Source: a virus
Length of the DNA stretch: 24,018 nt
IMG/VR virus record: IMGVR_UViG_3300031774_000152
Span: 1 to 24,018 of that record
Reading direction: 5' to 3' (one strand)
The notes beneath the pieces were generated by a model that did no database searches, was not told where the DNA came from, and saw only the letters and a program-made list of their open reading frames with translations. A program made the translations under genes and the position numbers. Positions 1 to 23,800 of this stretch are shown piece after piece (the first letter of the stretch is position 1; every line of letters starts with the position of its first letter).

Positions 1-42
1 GCCTTCAAGAGCGCCGAAAACATACGAGTATATAATGTCTAA
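1..42 (+). CDS. 3' end of an upstream gene (partial)
   Basis: Frame 1 is open from the window edge to a TAA at 40-42 and encodes the last 13 residues (AFKSAENIRVYNV). Its stop lies inside the start of the next gene (ATGTCTAA), the tight overlap seen between most genes here. That makes it a genuine gene end rather than chance. The product cannot be identified from 13 residues. In a podovirus-like order it would be another late structural gene. Confidence 0.6.
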   Translation, partial: AFKSAENIRVYNV

Positions 43-3000
43 ATTAAAAGAACTTGCTGGTTCCGATGCGAGAAGACAAGCATCAGTTGTAACAGAAGTT
101 CATTACAATAAAGGTTTAAATCCTGTTTTAAGCAACTTCCACGAAGAAGAATTTGTTTTCAGGGGTGTACATTTTTCAACAGCAGAAGGCGCATATCAAG
201 CTTGGAAAACAGGAGAGTATGTACCCGGATTTGAAAACCTTACAGGTGCGTCGGCTAAATCCAAAGGACGCAAATTAGCACCTGATACTGATACGAATAC
301 AGAATTGATGAGAGAGATCCTTCAAGCTAAATTCGATCAGTCTCCTACATTCAGAGAAAAACTATTAGCATCAGGGCAGATTACTCATCCTGTTAAAGAC
401 ACATTTTGGGCAGGTAAATTCCCTGAGTTGCTTGAAGAACTTAAGAGCAGTGTGCAAGGTTCTACGGATCATCCGTTGATTTCTTTCCCATCTCCTATCA
501 GGGGCGTATCAGTAGAAGCTGTTCCTAATCCAGAAGGTAATTTAGCGTCTGTTTCACATTCTGGCGGCTCGTTCAGTATTGATCTTAGGGCGATAGAAGA
601 AGCATATGAGAACCGTAATTTCACAGGGACAACTTTTGATTCTTTGAAACAATTCGGTTGGGGTCGTACTGATGATTTTGTGACAATACTTGCGACAAGA
701 AACATAGTTCCTTCTCAGCTTAGTGATGGTGAAAGGTTTGTTGAGTTAGTAAACTTATATGCAGAAACTCGTGGTATAGATACTGTCATTGGTTTGGATA
801 CACCATTAACTGACCAATTTGCTTTAATGGCTTATGTTTGGGAAACACAAATGTCACGCTTAAGATACGGTTACGCTACAAAACCCGCGGATAATGTTGA
901 AGCAGTAGCACGAGCCAATCAAGCTAACATGCTTACCTTATCTGAGCTTGGTATCCCTATACCTAATGTTACTGATGGTATTCCACGCGGAAATCAAAGC
1001 ACCCAAATAGCACATTGGTTATTTGGAAATCCGGGAAGATACAAAGATCCAAGCAAATTACATTATGCAGAGGATTCTTTAAAAGATGCTATGCAAAAGG
1101 CATATGTTGGGGCGCATAACACACCGGAAGGTCAGCAAGCACATACCAGTGCAGTTCGATCAAATATGGTTAGTGACCCATCATCCCCTTACATATCTGA
1201 AGCTATACCAGATTCTGTAGTAAGAAGTTTCGTGCCAATGGTCCCTACTTCTATAGCAGAAGATTTGACTTCTTTAATGATAGCTGATCCTGAATTAGTG
1301 GGGGCTACCAATAAATTCCATCAAATATTACAAAAGAACCTCACACGTAAAATAGATGAAATAGGTGGAACTGGTCCTAAGAGACTAAGCGATGGAGTGG
1401 TTGCCGTTACACAGTTATTAAACCCAGCGGTGAGTATAAAGGGCGCTCGTAATAGTGGTATTACTTACATGAAATTAGCTGAACAATGGGCTGATGCGGG
1501 TCATTTCCCATTAGTTACAGCTTCTACAGATCCAATGGTTGCTAAGGCTATAGCTGAAAGTGTTGTAGAAACAATCGCAGAAATGAAAGGCATCCCTGTT
1601 GAACAGATAGGTATGCCAAGGATAGGAACTAAGGATCTTCATGGTGATGAGTTCTTCAACAAACCCGGATATTACAGAAGAGAAAGAGAAAAGAATGCTC
1701 AGACTCCTGACTGGGATCTTGAACGTGGTGGTTTAACTTCAACAGAAAGTAACGCTTCGTTTGGTGATATACGCACAATGAATCATGTTTATGGTTTTGC
1801 TAGTGACGGTAGTGGTGCTGTTACTTCTGCACAAATGGGAGGAAGTGGATTAAGGGGGAAAACAGTATTTGGTATAGGTTCACATCGTTTAAGTCCGTTT
1901 GAGGGTCTTACACCTGTGCCTATGTCAGCTAATGGCGAATATCAAACAAGTAAAAAGATAGTAGCTAGGCATAAAGACAAGCTTCGCCCTAATGCAATTA
2001 TTGATCCTAATGATTCTTATGAATTGTCGTGGTATAAACCTGATGAATGGGATCTTGAGGAACAAATATTTAGTGGTCCGACAATTCATAATAAAATTTC
2101 AGAAACTGGGCAACTTGTTATAGATCATATTTTACATACGTACACGAATGAGCATAGAAGGTTGGGTACTACTCAGCCACTTAAAGTTTTCCATCCTTGG
2201 GTTGATGAAGTGATTAATGATGCTCCTATTGATGCTGGTCGCATGGGAACTAATGCTGATAATGACTCATGGTGGAGCAATGCACCGCAAGAATTGGTAG
2301 GTTTCGCTCCTGCTGAAGCAGAAGAACAAGGTGCGTTTTATTTGAAACTCTTTAGAGGATTCTTTGATGGTGTTGTTCACCCAATGTTAGGAGCAATGGT
2401 CAGGGAACCGTTATTCCATGAGTATCTGACAAAAGGCATGAAGCAGTCGGAAGGATTCAGGCAAACGTATTTCCATGCACCTGATAGATTCAAGACTCTT
2501 AATACTCGCTTAGGTAAAACATCTAGCGTTAATGATAATAAACAGTTAGTTATTGCCGGATGGGAAGATTTTGTAAAGCAAAACGCTTTGAGTCGAGTAC
2601 CTGATGCAGATGATCCTGTTACCAGCCTTTTCTACGCTATAGAAAACAGAAACAAAAAGGGTGTTGAAAACAGTTTAGAGTTGATATTAAACGGCACAGA
2701 AGAAATTGCGCCTTTAGCGTTACCGCCACAAATAAAAGAGTTCTTTGAAGAACTGTATGTGATGGCTGGTTCAAACACTAAAGTTGATGCAAAGCTATTA
2801 GATGATTTCTTTTCTTATAACGCAGGTTTAGAGAAGCAACTCGAATTGTGGAGAGATACCGGTCTTCAAAGGGCGATGACGTTAACGAGTTCGTTCATTG
2901 ATGACCATAGAATCAGATCAAACTTCCAAACAATGGTCAATACAGCTGTACCATTCTGGTTCGCTGAGGACACGTTCCTTAGAAGATTCGCACGAGGGTT

Positions 3001-4558
3001 AGCGCATAACCCATTAATGTTACGAAATTTGAACCTCTTCACAGGAGCGTTACGTGATATGAGTATTGTTCAAAAAGACCAATACGGGAATGACATCCTT
3101 GTAATTCCGGGATCAGGTGCTACAACAGGTTTCGTAATGGAACAGTTAGATAGATTCCCTCTTGTAGACCAAGTTTTTGGGGGAGGCTTAGGTAGTGTAG
3201 CTAAACCAAATCTAGCTTCAAGCCTTCATGTAATTCCGGGTTATGATTTAGACAGAATGGGTCAGATGGGCTTTGGTCCTTTGCTTTCAATCCCTATAAA
3301 TCTAGTCGCTAACATTGATTCGACTATCAGAAAGACTTTTGAGAACAACCTTTCAGGTGGCAGGTTCACCCCAGAGAATCGTGGAGAAGTAGTTTGGAGT
3401 GCGGTAGTTCCACAAGTTCTTGCACGACCTGTTTCTGCAATAATGGATGGATTCGGTTTTGAATCTAAAGGCAAGATCAAAGCTCAGATGGAAGTCATCA
3501 AGTATCTAGGGTTGCATGGTCAGCTTCCAACACCTGAAGAGATAGCGGCTCAACCTAATCCTGAAGTTTTCATGGAGAGATTCATGGATAAAGTAGCGCA
3601 AATGGGTAGACAGTATGCTCTTCTGCAAACAATGACATGGTGGGCTGGTCCTGCTACTGCACGGTTACATGACCTTATGAACAATGAAGCGTTTGAAAAA
3701 AACGAAGAGTTATGGGATCTAGTCGGTAATGGTGTCCCTTGGGAGGAAGCCTACGGAATGTGGATGGAGAAGATCATTGCTGAAGAAGGCGAGTTCGATC
3801 CGTTTGTACACACACCATTTATGGTAGGTACGCATAAAAAAGGTACCGTAGCTGTTTTAAGCACGACGCAAGAATCTAACGATTGGATTGTTGACAACGA
3901 TCCGTTTATTAAAAACTTTCCTAACACTTCGGCTTTCTTTATGGATCGTGGTTTTGTTGGTGGTGAGGATGATTACGAAGCAGACGCTAAAGCAAGATTG
4001 GTAGCACACGGTCTTTTAGAGTTGCAAACACCTGTAGACTTTTTGAATGAGGTGTATTACAAATCTGCGATGCCTCAGTATCAGAAAATGAAAACAGATT
4101 ATCTTGAAAAGAAGTACGCATTATTAGCTAGTAAGCAGGATACTTCGGCTTTAGATAGGCAATGGGATTCAGATAATTTACAGTTTATGGCTACTAACCC
4201 AGTGTTTGCTAAAGAATATCAGGGTGGTCGGTCGAGGGATAAACGGGAAGCTTCTATGAAAGAGATAGAGTTGCTTGCTAATAACCCTGAAAAAATTCCT
4301 GAAGGTCCATATAAAGCAGATTTGCTTGCAGTTATGGGACTAGCTACTCAGATGCAAAGAGACTTATTTAAGTTAAAAGGCTTAACAACTAGCGAAGCTA
4401 CACAACAAAGGAACAATGTTAAAGTGATGGTTTATTTGACTCTTCGTGACTTTGTTCGTGGTAAGCCGTGGTTAAATGAAATATATTATAGTTTAGTGCT
4501 TCCATTATTGGGAGAGAATTTTGTTGCAAAATTTGAGAATGGATTGATAAAAGTATGA
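35..4558 (+). CDS. Giant virion/ejection-like protein with N-terminal NADAR domain
   Basis: The protein has 1507 residues. Residues ~20-137 read as a NADAR/YbiA-like domain: LSNF at 32-35, the signature TAEGAYQAWK at 49-58 with the expected acidic residue E51, an AKF motif at 98-100, and an aromatic-rich end (DTFWAGKF, 122-129). The family processes ADP-ribose derivatives, and some members remove ADP-ribose from guanine in DNA. The other ~1370 residues match no catalytic family I recognise. They resemble the very long internal or ejection proteins of podoviruses, for example the aromatic stretch near residues 965-1000. The gene heads a chain of large genes linked by ATGA overlaps and stands two genes before a transglycosylase. 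The NADAR call is fairly secure. The ejection role is inferred from size and position. The usual TxEH signature has Gly instead of His at residue 52, so activity is uncertain. Confidence 0.8.
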   Translation: MSKLKELAGSDARRQASVVTEVHYNKGLNPVLSNFHEEEFVFRGVHFSTAEGAYQAWKTGEYVPGFENLTGASAKSKGRKLAPDTDTNTELMREILQAKFDQSPTFREKLLASGQITHPVKDTFWAGKFPELLEELKSSVQGSTDHPLISFPSPIRGVSVEAVPNPEGNLASVSHSGGSFSIDLRAIEEAYENRNFTGTTFDSLKQFGWGRTDDFVTILATRNIVPSQLSDGERFVELVNLYAETRGIDTVIGLDTPLTDQFALMAYVWETQMSRLRYGYATKPADNVEAVARANQANMLTLSELGIPIPNVTDGIPRGNQSTQIAHWLFGNPGRYKDPSKLHYAEDSLKDAMQKAYVGAHNTPEGQQAHTSAVRSNMVSDPSSPYISEAIPDSVVRSFVPMVPTSIAEDLTSLMIADPELVGATNKFHQILQKNLTRKIDEIGGTGPKRLSDGVVAVTQLLNPAVSIKGARNSGITYMKLAEQWADAGHFPLVTASTDPMVAKAIAESVVETIAEMKGIPVEQIGMPRIGTKDLHGDEFFNKPGYYRREREKNAQTPDWDLERGGLTSTESNASFGDIRTMNHVYGFASDGSGAVTSAQMGGSGLRGKTVFGIGSHRLSPFEGLTPVPMSANGEYQTSKKIVARHKDKLRPNAIIDPNDSYELSWYKPDEWDLEEQIFSGPTIHNKISETGQLVIDHILHTYTNEHRRLGTTQPLKVFHPWVDEVINDAPIDAGRMGTNADNDSWWSNAPQELVGFAPAEAEEQGAFYLKLFRGFFDGVVHPMLGAMVREPLFHEYLTKGMKQSEGFRQTYFHAPDRFKTLNTRLGKTSSVNDNKQLVIAGWEDFVKQNALSRVPDADDPVTSLFYAIENRNKKGVENSLELILNGTEEIAPLALPPQIKEFFEELYVMAGSNTKVDAKLLDDFFSYNAGLEKQLELWRDTGLQRAMTLTSSFIDDHRIRSNFQTMVNTAVPFWFAEDTFLRRFARGLAHNPLMLRNLNLFTGALRDMSIVQKDQYGNDILVIPGSGATTGFVMEQLDRFPLVDQVFGGGLGSVAKPNLASSLHVIPGYDLDRMGQMGFGPLLSIPINLVANIDSTIRKTFENNLSGGRFTPENRGEVVWSAVVPQVLARPVSAIMDGFGFESKGKIKAQMEVIKYLGLHGQLPTPEEIAAQPNPEVFMERFMDKVAQMGRQYALLQTMTWWAGPATARLHDLMNNEAFEKNEELWDLVGNGVPWEEAYGMWMEKIIAEEGEFDPFVHTPFMVGTHKKGTVAVLSTTQESNDWIVDNDPFIKNFPNTSAFFMDRGFVGGEDDYEADAKARLVAHGLLELQTPVDFLNEVYYKSAMPQYQKMKTDYLEKKYALLASKQDTSALDRQWDSDNLQFMATNPVFAKEYQGGRSRDKREASMKEIELLANNPEKIPEGPYKADLLAVMGLATQMQRDLFKLKGLTTSEATQQRNNVKVMVYLTLRDFVRGKPWLNEIYYSLVLPLLGENFVAKFENGLIKV

Positions 4559-7161
4559 ACGAATGGATTGAAGAAGTACAGATGATTCTTCAGGCTATTA
4601 CTGGCGATGTCATGGATTTCTCTGATATGTCTGAAGAAGAGACTCTTGAATATATAGAGGGTCTTGATCCTGCTTTACTCCAAGCAGTACAAGATCAGCT
4701 AGGTGACCCTAATATAGAGGCAACATCTGATGCCCGTGTTTTTGCTGAACTTGCTTTTGCATTAGCACCAATACCCGGATTAGGTAAATTCAAATTATTT
4801 AAGAAACTTGGATCTAAACTGATCCCAGCCAGAAAAGCAGGCAAGCAGGGGATTTTACCAAGAAAGATTTTAACTAAAACTTCGCAAGGTGCTACACCAT
4901 TAAGAACTGGGCGAAGACCAAGAGTACAAGGCGAATTTATGAACCTTCCGAGTGGTCGAACTGCCGCTGGTAAAGGACAAACAAGTGCTGGTGTGAAACA
5001 AACAAGAAGCCTTCGACCAACAGGTCCCGGTCATCCAAATCCTAAATGGGATGTTAATACAGGTGTCAATATGGGTGTTCTTTCAAAATTCAACACGCCT
5101 CTTGGTGGGATGTTAGAAGCGGCAAGAAGTCCTTCAGGACAAATACTGGCAAAAAGAGGAACTGCACTCACAGGATTAGCGGCTTTACAATATGGTATCG
5201 CTAACACAATGACACCCGGATTACCCGGAACTGATGTGACAATAGATGACGATGAAGTTAGTGAAGACGGTTACACTATGGGACAAGGCGGGTTGGGTAA
5301 TCTTACGGCTGAGACAGGTTCAGAATTTGGATCAGACTTTGGTGCCACACCTGAAAGCGAAGAGATTCTTAAAAAAATAGCTTGGGAAGGTCATACTATA
5401 AATTCTGCTAACGACAAGTTTATGCGTGTCGTGTTAGAACAGCCTCATTTAATGGGTGAAATGCCACAAGATTTCAACACGTTGGAACAGTACATAGCTG
5501 GGCAAGACAGTTTAGATATTATAAACGTTACAACTGGTCAAGGTCGGGATGATTTAGCTGGTTATATGGCAGAAGATTGGTTTAATATTCCCGGATTGCA
5601 TGAACAGTTGCTTGCTGAAGCACACCGACGGTTTGAAGATTTCGTTAACGTCAAAGATCAAGACATGGAATCTTTAACTGATATACCAATGCTAGGTAAT
5701 GATGAAGCACAAATGTGGGATGAAATTTTAGGATCAGATGCTCTGCCAGTACAGTCTATGGACTATATGGGTATGGAACCGATGGCTACTGGTGAATCGG
5801 GACAAACAATGCCACAGAATATTATTCAGCACATGGAGCAACAACTCGGTAAGGATGTGACAAGCAGGGTTCTTTCAGGTGCTAGAGATAAAGTGATTCA
5901 AGAATACATTACGAAAAGCACGAGAGCGAATCCGTATATGATTATGGATGCTAAAAATGGCGGTATCATTACAGGCTTTAACGAAGCGTATGACACTTCC
6001 AGTTTTGGGCAAGTCACAACAGCACAAGATCTTTTCTCAGGAGATTACGGGGTTAAAGTTGGACCAGTACACGCGGCTTCTTACCTTACGGATTTGTTCC
6101 ATCGGACTAACGACAGTTCAGGAAATGGTTCTTCTGTGATATCAGCATTCCAGCAAACTGCGTATGCGATGGGTTACATGGATCCAACTATGGGTCAGTT
6201 CCCTCCTCCTGATCGGTGGGGTCATGTTGACGATCAGACGATAAATGCTTATAAAGCAATGCAATGGGATATTATTCAAAATTATGATGAAGCTGAACGA
6301 TTGGGTTTAAACCCTGACGTTAAACTTCTTTGGAAAGAAATGCAGAACGAAGGCGTTATTCAAAGGATGGCTGGATCTGATATGGATGCAGAAGGGCAGT
6401 TTAGGATAGACGCATCTAGCAGATTCGCTGACTATGCTAAAGAAAAATTCTCTAAGAGGCTTGTTCCTACAATGAACATGCCTGAAGAAGAAATAAATAA
6501 GACTATAGATCAAGTGTTGAGTGACATGACTGATGAGGAAAGAAACATGGCTTGGGGTATGGGTGGTAATCCTGACGAGGTTGTGATGGCTGAAGAGATT
6601 TTAAAAGCTTTTTATAACGACGATCCTGATTGGGGTAGCAACATACGGTTCGGGCATAACAATTCAGATTTTATGAACTACGCCAATAAGGTCGGGGCTT
6701 TAACAGATAAAGAAAGAGAACAACACGCGGCAGATCTTATGGAAGGCCGTTCTAGCCCAATCGGGAAAGATGTAGCTATATCAAATTTCTTAATGATGCT
6801 TGATGGTGGTCTTGACGCAGAGGGTAAAAGAATGAAAGGTGATATTACAAACTCTACAAGGGATCAGATTCGGTCAGGGTTGGTTAGATACGCAAACACT
6901 ATAGGTTTTGAACACTCAAAGAACAGTGGTTTTACTCCTGATGACATTTTCCGACTTGCAGATACAGGCATGTCAGCGGCACGTTCAGCTGACACACAGG
7001 ATTATGACGAGTTGATGACGACCTTAGAAGGCAGAATGGATCTTTTAACAGATTACAGTTCTCGTGGTATCAGTTCAGGTAACTCGATTCTTTGGGGTAC
7101 TACGATGCCAAGAAGTGTGGTTAATATGCCGGTGCGTGATAAGGGTGGTAAAGCATTATGA
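4555..7161 (+). CDS. Large putative virion-associated protein, function unknown
   Basis: The protein has 868 residues, and its ATG overlaps the preceding TGA (ATGA), which suggests translational coupling. The N-terminus is acidic. Residues ~65-85 form a short hydrophobic segment containing FALAPIPG, followed by a strongly basic, Gly-rich linker to ~165. A second hydrophobic stretch lies around 200-220, and then a long acidic, Met- and Gln-rich helical region runs to the end. I see no enzymatic signature. A basic segment flanked by potential membrane-active segments suits an internal virion protein released with the DNA, as does the position between the giant NADAR protein and a transglycosylase. 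This is inference; a minor tail component is the main alternative. Confidence 0.7.
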   Translation: MNEWIEEVQMILQAITGDVMDFSDMSEEETLEYIEGLDPALLQAVQDQLGDPNIEATSDARVFAELAFALAPIPGLGKFKLFKKLGSKLIPARKAGKQGILPRKILTKTSQGATPLRTGRRPRVQGEFMNLPSGRTAAGKGQTSAGVKQTRSLRPTGPGHPNPKWDVNTGVNMGVLSKFNTPLGGMLEAARSPSGQILAKRGTALTGLAALQYGIANTMTPGLPGTDVTIDDDEVSEDGYTMGQGGLGNLTAETGSEFGSDFGATPESEEILKKIAWEGHTINSANDKFMRVVLEQPHLMGEMPQDFNTLEQYIAGQDSLDIINVTTGQGRDDLAGYMAEDWFNIPGLHEQLLAEAHRRFEDFVNVKDQDMESLTDIPMLGNDEAQMWDEILGSDALPVQSMDYMGMEPMATGESGQTMPQNIIQHMEQQLGKDVTSRVLSGARDKVIQEYITKSTRANPYMIMDAKNGGIITGFNEAYDTSSFGQVTTAQDLFSGDYGVKVGPVHAASYLTDLFHRTNDSSGNGSSVISAFQQTAYAMGYMDPTMGQFPPPDRWGHVDDQTINAYKAMQWDIIQNYDEAERLGLNPDVKLLWKEMQNEGVIQRMAGSDMDAEGQFRIDASSRFADYAKEKFSKRLVPTMNMPEEEINKTIDQVLSDMTDEERNMAWGMGGNPDEVVMAEEILKAFYNDDPDWGSNIRFGHNNSDFMNYANKVGALTDKEREQHAADLMEGRSSPIGKDVAISNFLMMLDGGLDAEGKRMKGDITNSTRDQIRSGLVRYANTIGFEHSKNSGFTPDDIFRLADTGMSAARSADTQDYDELMTTLEGRMDLLTDYSSRGISSGNSILWGTTMPRSVVNMPVRDKGGKAL

Positions 7162-8195
7162 CTTATACCCCAATAGAGGGTAATCTCCACTCTGACGAAC
7201 TTTTACAGCTTGCTATGGATGCAGGGTTTTCTTTTGAAGAAGCTGTGACTGCTACTGGTATCGCTTTAGCTGAATCAAACGGCAATCCTAATACGTGGAC
7301 TGATAATGATAGTGGTGGAGCGTATGGTTTATGGCAGATTTCAGGAGTTAATAAGCAATGGGCGATAGAGAATATTCCCGGAATTGATTCTGTAGAAGAT
7401 TTGTATGATCCAGTTCTTAATTCTAAAGCGGCATTTGCTGTAGCGATGCACCATTCTTATAGCGAACCTAGAACAACTCCTAATTGGGAGCATTTCGACG
7501 GATATAAAACAATGAACACGTTTAATGAGTATGCGTATGGAGGGACAAGTAATAACTGGGAGTCGGAAGAAGGGAATATTATTCTTCCGACTGCCAGTCA
7601 AGAAGGTAGGAATGCTGGTGCGCGTTATCAGAGAGTAGAGCAAGGGCGTTTGAATCCTGAGACTGTTGATTTAGATAATGTTTTAGACCCGTCTAATGTT
7701 GGTGATATGACTGTAGGGGAAATTAAAGATAAATATAATTTAGGTTTACATGCTCGTATTGGTAGGAGTGCTGAGGCTTTTATAGATAGTAGTAAGGGTC
7801 ATGTGCGTCCTGTTGTGGGGAGGGTAGAACCTCAATTTACTGAAGAATGGATAAAGAATCTTGAAGGTAAGGGAGAAACTAAGCTGGCTGATACTTTACG
7901 TCGCGCTAATTTGTCTGATGGTAATGCTATTATGTTTGATTATCCGTACGGACCAGAGTGGGCTGAAAAACATGCTCATAGGTTTGGTATAAAATTATGG
8001 GATGGTGCTAAAGAAATCGGCAGTATGTTAAGTGATGGTCTTGAATATGATTGGAAGTTGCTTAAGTCTGATCCTGTTGGTTTGAGAAAGATGTTAGGTA
8101 GTTGGCTTATGGAAGATAGTCTATCCGAAAGATCACCTGAATCACTACCTGAAAGAGCTGGTCCTTCTAGAAGAGGTGGTGTTATCGATGAGTGA
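7158..8195 (+). CDS. Virion-associated lysozyme-fold transglycosylase
   Basis: The protein has 345 residues, with an ATGA overlap to the gene before it. Residues ~12-135 have the goose-lysozyme/SLT-like pattern: a predicted catalytic Glu (E39) in ALAESNGNP (37-44), then GGAYGLWQIS (53-62), the usual G-L-(W/M)-Q-I motif. The substrate is expected to be peptidoglycan glycan strands. The C-terminal ~200 residues are unassigned and may anchor it in the particle. It lacks a signal peptide and lies far from the holin, so local wall opening during DNA entry is a better fit than lysis, for which a separate M15 endolysin exists near 17.5 kb. The domain call is confident; the entry role is inference from context. 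Confidence 0.82.
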   Translation: MTYTPIEGNLHSDELLQLAMDAGFSFEEAVTATGIALAESNGNPNTWTDNDSGGAYGLWQISGVNKQWAIENIPGIDSVEDLYDPVLNSKAAFAVAMHHSYSEPRTTPNWEHFDGYKTMNTFNEYAYGGTSNNWESEEGNIILPTASQEGRNAGARYQRVEQGRLNPETVDLDNVLDPSNVGDMTVGEIKDKYNLGLHARIGRSAEAFIDSSKGHVRPVVGRVEPQFTEEWIKNLEGKGETKLADTLRRANLSDGNAIMFDYPYGPEWAEKHAHRFGIKLWDGAKEIGSMLSDGLEYDWKLLKSDPVGLRKMLGSWLMEDSLSERSPESLPERAGPSRRGGVIDE

Positions 8196-12499: not shown

Positions 12500-13684
12500 A
12501 TGGCTATAGTAGGCTATGGAGGTAAAGTAACCTCATACGATCTTGCCGTTGGCGTTAAGATCAACATGGATGAACTCATTTATATGATTTCACCAACAGA
12601 CTCTCCGTTTATCAACGGTATTGGAACTGATGGAAGGCAACTTCTTTCAAGTTCTCCCGTAGATCAGCAAGAGTTTAAATGGATGGACGAAGAACTTTTG
12701 CTTCCTCGTGCAACCGCCGCTGGTACAGGAGCCGCAGGAGCAGGTGACACAACTATTACAGTTTCAGCCGCCGACTCTTACAAGTTCCAAGTAGACGATC
12801 TTCTAAACATTGGTGAAGAAGATGCTGTCGTTAATGGTGCCGTTAAGAGAATCACAGCAATTAATAATACCAGTGGTGTTATTAATGTAAGTGATTGGGC
12901 TAATGGTTCAGCTTGGCCAGCAACAACCGCCGCACACGAAGACACAATTATATGTCTTGGTACTGCATTGGTTGAAGGTTCAGATCCGGGACAATCGCGT
13001 ACAGCAGATCGCACGATCCACTCAAACTATACGCAGATCTTCGGACCTACACCTATCCACATGTCACGTACTGAACAGCAGGTATCCCGTTACGGTGTAT
13101 CTGATGAGTTCGCCAAACAAGTTTATGGTCGCTCAGTTGAGAACGTGATAACTCGTGAACAAGCATACCTTTATGGTAAGCCAGTAAACGACACTACCAA
13201 CAAGCGCCGTTCAACTGGTGGCTTGATGAACTTCATTACTACTAACACTGACAGCTCAACAACTACGTTGACTATCACAGCGTTAGAAGCTTTGATGCAG
13301 AAATGCTATAACGCAGGTGGTATTCCCGATCTTTTGATCGCTAATCCAGCTTCGTTTGCTACCTTGAATGCTATATCAGATAGTGGTCGTGTCCGCACAA
13401 CCATTGATGATCCTCGTCGTGGTCGCGTACCTGTATCTTCTGTCTTCACCGAGTTTGGTGAAACACAGATGGTAAGGAACCGCTGGTGCCACTCTGAGAG
13501 TGCATTCGTAGTCCAGAAGGAAAATATTTCCCGACGGGTTATGCAACCACTCGTGGTTGAAGCTCTCGCCAAAACTGGTGACAGCGACAAGGTGCAAATT
13601 GTTTGTGAAGAAGGACTCCAAGTTAAGGGTCAGTCTCACATGGCAAGATTCACTAATCTAACTGGCTACACGGATACTCCGTAG
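12500..13684 (+). CDS. SU10-like major capsid protein
   Basis: The protein has 394 residues and starts at an ATG with an excellent AAAGGAG (12486-12492) seven bases upstream, one of the strongest ribosome sites in the window, as expected for the most abundant protein. The sequence follows the SU10-type capsid family (DUF5309): an N-terminal region ending in DSPFINGIG (~35-43), FGPTPIHMSRTEQQVSRYG (~178-196), TREQAYLYGK near 215, and a C-terminal region with LQVKGQSHMARFTNLTGY. It forms the icosahedral shell with an HK97-like fold. An insertion at ~75-120 is Gly/Ala/Thr-rich and may be a surface loop. It follows the scaffold and zinc ribbon and is followed directly by a long hairpin. Confidence 0.85.
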   Translation: MAIVGYGGKVTSYDLAVGVKINMDELIYMISPTDSPFINGIGTDGRQLLSSSPVDQQEFKWMDEELLLPRATAAGTGAAGAGDTTITVSAADSYKFQVDDLLNIGEEDAVVNGAVKRITAINNTSGVINVSDWANGSAWPATTAAHEDTIICLGTALVEGSDPGQSRTADRTIHSNYTQIFGPTPIHMSRTEQQVSRYGVSDEFAKQVYGRSVENVITREQAYLYGKPVNDTTNKRRSTGGLMNFITTNTDSSTTTLTITALEALMQKCYNAGGIPDLLIANPASFATLNAISDSGRVRTTIDDPRRGRVPVSSVFTEFGETQMVRNRWCHSESAFVVQKENISRRVMQPLVVEALAKTGDSDKVQIVCEEGLQVKGQSHMARFTNLTGYTDTP

Positions 13685-19830: not shown

Positions 19831-20182
19831 GACCCATCTCCTTTGCTATCTTTCTTAATCGTTTAGCTTCTGCTTCCCAATCCATCTTAGCTATCACTTC
19901 CTTTTTGCGATAGAGAGCGTAGTAGTTCTCTTCGCCTATTTGTTCAATCGTAAATTTTCCGAACTCAACAGGATTATCAGTAAACGTCATGTGACATGAT
20001 GCACACAAACAGAAAGCGTTATCTAGATCAGTACGTGTTTGAGAATACTTACGTGAAATAATATGAGCGCATTGCAACGCATTAGTATTACCACAGTTCA
20101 TACACTTACCGAAGTCTCTAGTAATTAACGCATGTAATCTTGTTGCTCTGCCTTTAGCACCCTTACCATATATGTCAGCCAT
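19823..20182 (-). CDS. HNH endonuclease
   Basis: The frame is open to 20275, but ATG 20182 overlaps the previous stop in the pattern GATGGCTGA and gives a compact 119-residue protein that begins just before the conserved part. The zinc-bound HNH fold is clear: C27-x2-C30 and C60-x2-C63, His at 40 in CAHI, Asn at 55 in LDNA, His at 64 (CHMTF). The C-terminus is a charged helix. It would nick or cut DNA. Phage relatives act in packaging, recombination (NinG-like) or as free-standing homing nucleases. Its fixed place within overlapping genes argues for a core role rather than a recent mobile insertion. Confidence 0.78.
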   Translation of the reverse strand: MADIYGKGAKGRATRLHALITRDFGKCMNCGNTNALQCAHIISRKYSQTRTDLDNAFCLCASCHMTFTDNPVEFGKFTIEQIGEENYYALYRKKEVIAKMDWEAEAKRLRKIAKEMGLV

Positions 20183-21032
20183 CAGCAGGCACATACTTTG
20201 GTGGAGGATTAGGATTTCTTTTAACAGATACACCTGCTGGTGGGGTATCCCATCCCTCTTCAACAACTTCAGCATCTAGAATAGTAGCTACTAAAGAATT
20301 AGGTTCAACTAATTCAAGCACCGGCGCTGGAGGTGAGGGGTCTTCCAACGCCGATGCCATTCCCTGACCTTCTAAAATCTTATCAGCTGAACTATTCATA
20401 GATAATCTAGGAACAACAAAATGTCTAGTCTGACCTGCACTTACCTTGCTTCTTTTCTCTAAACTAAGAGTACATTCAGCCAACCCTATAGCCTGTAATT
20501 GACCTAACATTCCAGCCATTCCGGGTATTTCATTTGCCGCGTTCCATCCATTAGATTCTAGTCTCCATACACCACCAAATTTAATTTCGGGTAACACAAC
20601 TCGAAGCCTAGTAACAGGAGAACACAACATTGAATCCTCATTTGAACACAGACAGGGAACAGTATCTAGATCCATGCCATCAGGAGTCGCCATTGGAACC
20701 TCCACATTTTCACCATCGCATCGACGCTGACAACCACCTGCTGACCACGCTTCATACCAGACATCAATGCTATGTGGAGGCAAGAATACCCTTATCTCAG
20801 ATGCTTGTGTAATTACTTCCCATTGATCTTGTTTACTTCTAGGTGGCTTCCAATCATTTACCGAGCCACCATATATCTCAGCAATTTCTTCAATGGCTCC
20901 CTTATCAGGAGAAGTAAACCGAAATGTCTCTAATGATTTAGGAAAACCTTTTCCTTTATCCTTAACACCCAACCGTATACGCCCCTGTTCAGGTGTCCTA
21001 CCTAGTTCATTAAGTGGTTTGATCTCTCTCAT
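20175..21032 (-). CDS. Gp3-like recombination directionality factor family protein
   Basis: The protein has 285 residues. The sequence strongly matches the phiC31 Gp3-like family: GRIRLG (17-22), TFRFTSP (36-42), a YGG at 54-56, QWEVIT (70-75), GGCQRRCDG (99-107), then CLC (127-129) and C137, together a probable zinc site, and FGGVWRLESNGWNAA, SAGQTRHFVVP further on. In phiC31, Gp3 turns the serine integrase from integration to excision. Many phages without a visible integrase also carry a relative, so this one may have another DNA-transaction role. The neighbours are a Cas4-like nuclease and an HNH nuclease. The last ~50 residues are Pro-rich and flexible. Confidence 0.82.
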   Translation of the reverse strand: MREIKPLNELGRTPEQGRIRLGVKDKGKGFPKSLETFRFTSPDKGAIEEIAEIYGGSVNDWKPPRSKQDQWEVITQASEIRVFLPPHSIDVWYEAWSAGGCQRRCDGENVEVPMATPDGMDLDTVPCLCSNEDSMLCSPVTRLRVVLPEIKFGGVWRLESNGWNAANEIPGMAGMLGQLQAIGLAECTLSLEKRSKVSAGQTRHFVVPRLSMNSSADKILEGQGMASALEDPSPPAPVLELVEPNSLVATILDAEVVEEGWDTPPAGVSVKRNPNPPPKYVPADG

Positions 21033-23239: not shown

Positions 23240-23514
23240 TATCTATCTCTCCTTTGTTTGAGATTTTGTTTTGCTTCCTCAATATTTTTGAGGTTACGTT
23301 CTATCATTTCATCTGTTATCTCCACAGAATCCCCTTCATAAAATTTCTTAGGGGCTTCTTGACTAACCGCCCCTTGTAACACACCTCTTATTGAGCGGAT
23401 TAACGCCAACGTTCTAGCGTGATCCTTCTTAGTATCAAAAGGTTTACTCCTCATAGATTTAACAAATATATTAAGTTCTTTGTTTATTTCTGAGAGGCGT
23501 TTGTTTACGTTCAT
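23239..23514 (-). CDS. Helical protein of unknown function (91 aa)
   Basis: The ATG at 23514 lies within the end of the WhiB gene (44-base overlap) and the stop overlaps the DUF932 start. The 91-residue product is basic and almost wholly helical, with amphipathic stretches ~3-45 and ~68-91 (MIERNLKNIEEAKQNL) that may form a coiled coil. No domain is recognised. It may bind DNA or partner with WhiB or DUF932, but nothing in the sequence proves this. Confidence 0.58.
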   Translation of the reverse strand: MNVNKRLSEINKELNIFVKSMRSKPFDTKKDHARTLALIRSIRGVLQGAVSQEAPKKFYEGDSVEITDEMIERNLKNIEEAKQNLKQRRDR

Positions 23515-23800
23515 ATGCGAACCTGTACCTTTCAGCCTCTACTACACATGACAGATAAGTGTCACGTAAATCTTTCTTATGCCAGAACCACAACTCTTCA
23601 CGTTTGTTAGCAAGCACACCCCCACGTATAAACATGGGATGGTCACTTAGTCGATCATCAATTTTAATCGCATCCCATAAACACTGGGCTTGTACTGGGC
23701 AACCCCAACACACTTCACGTTTAACATTTTCAACTTTCATTCCCTTGCATTGTGCTTCATGCCACCAACTATCCAGTTCAGATTGTGTAGGTACTTTCAT
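23471..23800 (-). CDS. WhiB-family iron-sulphur transcription regulator
   Basis: The protein has 109 residues; the ATG at 23800 has GGAG five bases upstream. The four cluster Cys are C18, C31, C34 and C40 (C-x12-C-x2-C-x5-C, with CWGCPVQAQC at 31-40). The family's turn appears as IRGGVLANKREELW. A basic C-terminus follows (ERKQTPLRNKQR). WhiB proteins carry an oxygen- or NO-sensitive [4Fe-4S] cluster and act with the primary sigma factor. Phage copies can steer host transcription or block superinfection. Its presence is the best evidence for an actinobacterial host. It leads the visible part of the minus-strand gene set. Confidence 0.88.
   Translation of the reverse strand: MKVPTQSELDSWWHEAQCKGMKVENVKREVCWGCPVQAQCLWDAIKIDDRLSDHPMFIRGGVLANKREELWFWHKKDLRDTYLSCVVEAERYRFAYERKQTPLRNKQRT

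Follow-up and report, generated by a model that had tools for sequence, protein, structure and literature searches.

A NADAR domain in an exchangeable block of a giant, portal-adjacent phage protein

The giant gene and its neighbourhood

The window, i.e. the whole stretch of DNA analysed, is a 24,018-base linear viral fragment, whose features are listed in Table 1. When read from the ATG at position 35, its first gene encodes 1,507 residues, and the first-pass annotation described a protein of that length with a NADAR domain fused to its N-terminus. The frame, nevertheless, is open to base 2 of the window. In the near-identical contig IMGVR_UViG_3300037674_000146 the complete giant ORF has 3,889 residues; its residues 2383-3889 are 99.9% identical to the window ORF, whose residue 1 corresponds to residue 2383 of the giant. 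The ATG at position 35 encodes a methionine within the protein, where the preceding DUF7831 domain ends. Judged from this comparison, the window begins inside the giant gene and contains the last 39% of its coding sequence. A scan with ORF residues 1-150 recovered nine related viral contigs. The fusion as such recurs, since NADAR lies within the giants of relatives, but its terminal placement does not: the stretch is deep inside one open frame in all nine contigs and occupies residues 2397-2519 of the complete giant. Two mid-sized proteins have a NADAR domain near the N-terminus, namely: L050 (residues 47-164 of 777) and L051 (residues 27-144 of 769). They are candidates for the type of fusion that had been proposed.

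Table 1. Features of the window, with positions counted from its first base.
Feature	Coordinates	Strand	Basis
Giant gene, C-terminal 1,518 codons (residues 2372-3889 of ~3,889)	2..4558	+	Frame open to base 2
DUF7831 tail (whole domain: giant residues 2276-2384)	2..40	+	Pfam PF25176, E=3.6e-32, full-length relative
Cargo block, C-terminal part (right boundary approximate)	2..1045	+	Block missing in short relatives
NADAR domain (giant residues 2397-2519; ORF residues 15-137 from ATG 35)	77..445	+	Profiles, structure
Catalytic Glu (E43 of 8bau)	185..187	+	Profile alignment; Glu in every A3 row
Catalytic Lys (K50 of 8bau)	206..208	+	Profile alignment; A3 columns
Pyrophosphate-binding Arg (R79 of 8bau)	269..271	+	Profile alignment; A3 columns
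Third catalytic position, His (E125 in 8bau)	386..388	+	Profile alignment
Asp and Trp (D130, W133 of 8bau)	398..409	+	Profile alignment
Conserved C-terminal body of giant	1046..4555	+	Common to short forms over 2720-3889
868-aa protein; homologues after giant in many relatives	4555..7161	+	No convincing family match (Pfam, PHROGs)
SLT/lysozyme-like protein	7158..8195	+	Pfam SLT_3, 2.4e-13
SU10-type major capsid protein	12500..13684	+	Pfam PF17236, 3.8e-59
Gp3-like recombination directionality factor family protein	20178-21032	-	Pfam, 2.3e-36
WhiB-like protein	23474-23800	-	Pfam, 2.3e-4, slightly below gathering score

Several unrelated enzymatic domains are combined in the 3,889-aa ORF. In addition to DUF7831 and NADAR, a Pfam scan of the complete ORF identified an AlkB-type 2OG-Fe(II) oxygenase (residues 2115-2245, E=1.5e-24), which retains the HxD...H and RxNxTFR motifs, and gave a weak match to YAcAr SLOG (residues 1345-1393, E=0.0073). 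The same scan detected no LPD domain in the giant itself, and an NCBIfam search of the giant returned no match.

Upstream of the giant gene lie the genes for the large terminase subunit (TerL, 4.7e-50) and then the portal protein (3.4e-8). The TerL-portal-giant order is kept in relatives whose stretch extends far enough upstream, and the capsid gene is found downstream where it is reached. This gene order, together with the fold of the domain described below, supports the earlier view that NADAR is embedded in a giant late protein in a portal-adjacent, ejection-like context. The body of the giant has no match among the annotated phages in the collection. For the terminase and portal, the main annotated matches are Streptomyces phages, at 23-27% identity; along with the WhiB-like protein, they suggest an actinobacterial host. 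The Gp3-like recombination directionality factor was noted in connection with a possible temperate past.

The NADAR domain and its catalytic residues

The stretch assigned to NADAR at the head of the window ORF proved to be well above chance. Its Pfam matches, to NADAR (E=4.8e-5; 24.1 bits vs. a gathering score of 35.1) and to Phage_30_3 (E=2.4e-6), both fall under the curated cut-off, which is a scoring convention and no biological trait, and PHROGs searches matched it to phrog_652 (7e-10) and phrog_1017 (1e-9). A profile built from 27 relatives matched YbiA (2.7e-15) and the NADAR structure 8bau (2.5e-9) in the PDB; the latter is an ADP-ribose-bound NADAR from Phytophthora and is our reference for residue numbering. 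An AlphaFold2 model of window positions 74-484 has a pLDDT of 91.6, and its top structural matches are YbiA (2b3w; Z 13.9), 8bau (13.4) and 8bat (9.0), followed by a row at 2.1; Foldseek rows past the NADAR structures were treated as noise. The NADAR domain is real, being weak by sequence and secure by structure. A second model covering AlkB, DUF7831 and NADAR (mean pLDDT 60) was good only in NADAR and is excluded from our claims about the fold. Between close relatives, the dN/dS of the NADAR domain is 0.2-0.4, which points to purifying selection.

The catalytic residues were placed by profile alignment to 8bau and checked in an alignment, A3, of 21 embedded copies (ORFs of 583 to 4,601 aa as available) and six small stand-alone proteins (149-333 aa). 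At the third catalytic position, every one of the 21 embedded copies has His and all six stand-alone proteins have Glu. A charged residue at this position has been described as Glu in YbiA, Asp in BC4488 and His in phage (PMC11125620). Glu, Lys and His are retained in nearly all embedded NADAR copies, but two ligands of the ADP-ribose pyrophosphate, W89 and R93 of 8bau, are not conserved in the phage domain. The ligand roles of the 8bau residues are taken from PMC11543638. L061 and L065 have a split NADAR with an altered third catalytic motif; these copies were at one stage regarded as half domains, which we reject, as their NADARs are split by a SLOG insertion. It should be noted that the row of L059 in A3 is misaligned upstream of His because of its split domain, while its N-terminal NADAR piece itself contains the catalytic Glu and Lys. 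The alignment supports a catalytic centre that looks intact.

The first-pass annotation had also remarked that Gly replaces the usual His after the catalytic Glu, and had taken this as a possible sign of degeneracy. The observation is correct, but the interpretation can be discarded: T4 gp30.3, which shares Glu-Gly, Lys and His with the phage domain, hydrolyses guanosine-ADPr on DNA in vitro, although it gives no rescue from DarT1 in vivo (PMC11125620). Gly at this position is therefore no sign of decay.

An exchangeable block within the giant

A search with the C-terminal 610 residues of the body found 51 loci, five of which are close relatives already known. Among these loci are 26 ORFs with neither end open, which are short forms of 2,517-2,849 aa (L077-L079, L081-L084, L086-L088, L091-L096, L099-L103, L105, L107, L118, L120 and L122); some of their contigs may be near-duplicates. 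The NADAR, AlkB, SLOG and DUF7831 profiles have no match in any of the 26 (E 0.01, domain 0.05). A further complete ORF, L090, has the same C-terminal body in only 1,190 aa and no cargo-profile match, and may represent a giant gene that was split or truncated.

Of 13 short forms compared with the 3,889-aa protein, most aligned at residues ~18-1251 and ~2720-3889, at identities of mostly 27-38%, with 68-161 residues (361 in L099) between the two flanks. As the flanks align on either side, the long form has residues ~1252-2720 in addition. In this phage, the extra block holds the SLOG-like domain, the AlkB-type oxygenase, DUF7831 and NADAR. The difference may stem from an insertion in the long form or from a deletion in the short form. 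Where the sequence extends to these genes, the terminase and portal proteins of relatives with the short form share 77-96% identity with those of this phage.

The content of the block varies among the giants. SLOG, AlkB and NADAR occur together in L055/L116 and L085; SLOG and AlkB in L112 and L113, with no NADAR in the available part of the ORF; and SLOG, AlkB and DUF7831 in L114 and L115. The close relatives G005 and G006 (L043, L045) are without DUF7831 and retain AlkB and NADAR. In many giants SLOG lies next to NADAR or inside it; it is nested in NADAR, and so splits it, in L056, L060/L106, L061/L111, L065/L110 and L108, and DUF7831 is nested in NADAR in L059. AlkB stands immediately before NADAR, or before its DUF7831 neighbour, in the giant studied here and in its close relatives; in L055/L116, NADAR itself comes straight after AlkB. 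Among the giants, SLOG is the commoner partner of NADAR, compared with AlkB.

The body of the short forms matches no PDB, PHROGs or annotated-phage entry. Its profile gave only a weakly suggestive hit to a 1,648-aa protein of Streptomyces phage Immanuel3, whose gene lies downstream of that for the portal (E=0.018, probability 2.6). In a more distant phage, the giant that bears NADAR also carries Pfam ‘Large polyvalent protein associated domain 38’ (LPD38); the body profiles have no match in LPD38-bearing C-termini.

Known systems and the predicted role of the domain

The occurrence of NADAR in viruses, its predicted packaging into virions and polyvalent proteins are already in the literature. 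The last are giant multidomain proteins of phages and conjugative elements for which injection has been predicted (Iyer et al. 2017, PMC5512222). Our protein resembles them as a giant from a phage with the portal-terminase arrangement that mixes unrelated enzymatic domains, but it differs in having no detected LPD domain and a body unmatched to any known family. NADAR, SLOG, AlkB and oxygenase are absent from the text of PMC5512222. According to PMC9503650, phage NADARs typically occur as stand-alone proteins. The presence of NADAR in a giant does have a precedent in the public record, in one crAss-like phage, cr126_1, whose DUF1768 protein (MT774391, QOR59539) is a 2,402-aa giant with a NADAR match (E=1.7e-13). 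In contrast to the giant studied here, that protein has NADAR near its true N-terminus, belongs to an unrelated phage and shows no other Pfam domain; its gene (L038, 5509-12717, - strand) lies beside that of a putative RNA polymerase subunit. No mention of the exchangeable AlkB/DUF7831/SLOG/NADAR block of these phages turned up in the literature searched.

With regard to the enzyme, NADARs of the T4 gp30.3 type (Phage_30_3; PMC11125620) share with the phage domain the catalytic Glu and Lys, the Glu-Gly motif and His as the third residue. They differ in context: T4 gp30.3 is a stand-alone protein of 152 aa, whereas the domain studied here shares a 3,889-aa protein with AlkB, DUF7831 and SLOG-like domains. 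The DarT1-linked NADAR antitoxins (PMC11543638) have the NADAR fold and the conserved Glu and Lys in common with it, but they carry Asp at the third position and an N-terminal DNA-binding extension of YbiA fold; the phage domain has His and, in the model, the core domain only, and thus lacks these hallmarks of a DarT1 antitoxin. None of the window proteins scanned matched DarT.

The giant body is most likely an internal virion or ejection protein, its packaging and ejection being plausible from gene context. Our preferred proposal, which we put at a little under an even chance, is that the giant is ejected from the virion with an exchangeable cargo, in which NADAR hydrolyses ADP-ribose N-glycosidic bonds, soluble substrates being slightly favoured. 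One protein would thereby combine conserved N- and C-terminal body regions with an exchangeable enzymatic middle block; this block would reach the cytoplasm with the phage DNA, and at an early stage of infection NADAR would then cleave N-glycosidic bonds to ADP-ribose. The domain, its fold, its catalytic residues, the presence or absence of the block and the gene context are observed; activity and substrate, like packaging and ejection, are predictions. Soluble ADP-ribose or NAD-derived signals or toxins would be slightly favoured over guanine-ADP-ribose in nucleic acid: the recurrent SLOG partners, nested in several NADARs, suggest that soluble ADP-ribose derivatives are no less likely than DNA to be the substrate, and such derivatives have been argued to be phage NADAR substrates (PMC9503650). 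The position between portal and capsid genes and the body-cargo anatomy fit a polyvalent virion protein. Counting against an ejected hydrolase are the loss of W89 and R93, the Pfam score under the cut-off, the lack of a detected LPD domain and a body that matches neither LPD38 C-termini nor annotated phages.

The adjacency of AlkB points instead to a nucleic-acid substrate. A virion-borne NADAR could have as its substrate guanine-ADP-ribose in the incoming DNA (or in RNA), countering DarT1-like host toxins, while AlkB removes alkyl adducts, so that the phage would bring a pre-emptive base-repair kit. DNA de-ADP-ribosylation is possible by analogy with T4 gp30.3 and its activity in vitro, the two being of the same His type; the failure of T4 gp30.3 to rescue from DarT1, the absence of the DarT1-antitoxin features, the greater frequency of SLOG partners and the fact that no host DarT1 is known here leave base repair a rather unlikely account. 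A combined version, in which a single virion protein carries an exchangeable de-adduct kit (AlkB and NADAR, with SLOG/DUF7831 helpers) that reverses both ADP-ribosylation and alkylation of DNA/RNA before any phage gene is expressed, appears unlikely. It is more doubtful still that a giant synthesised late would work in the cell that produces it, or remain in the particle uninjected, its cargo countering late host responses or aiding assembly. The backing for packaging is gene position, and some phage NADARs are early genes expressed inside the cell (PMC9503650), but being part of a giant encoded in the portal-terminase cluster is a context described for polyvalent proteins with predicted injection (PMC5512222). 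Finally, a degenerate, or purely binding or structural, NADAR domain would agree with the lost pyrophosphate ligands, the sub-threshold Pfam score and the altered split copies of L061 and L065, but is improbable given the catalytic triplet kept in nearly all embedded copies, the purifying selection and the high-confidence predicted fold.

Under the preferred reading of an ejected giant with exchangeable cargo, the value of the locus lies in the distribution of the block: NADAR sits in an exchangeable part of a portal-adjacent giant that is present in some and absent from other phages with 77-96% identical terminase and portal proteins. This natural presence/absence series would make a virion-delivered ADP-ribose counter-defence directly testable.
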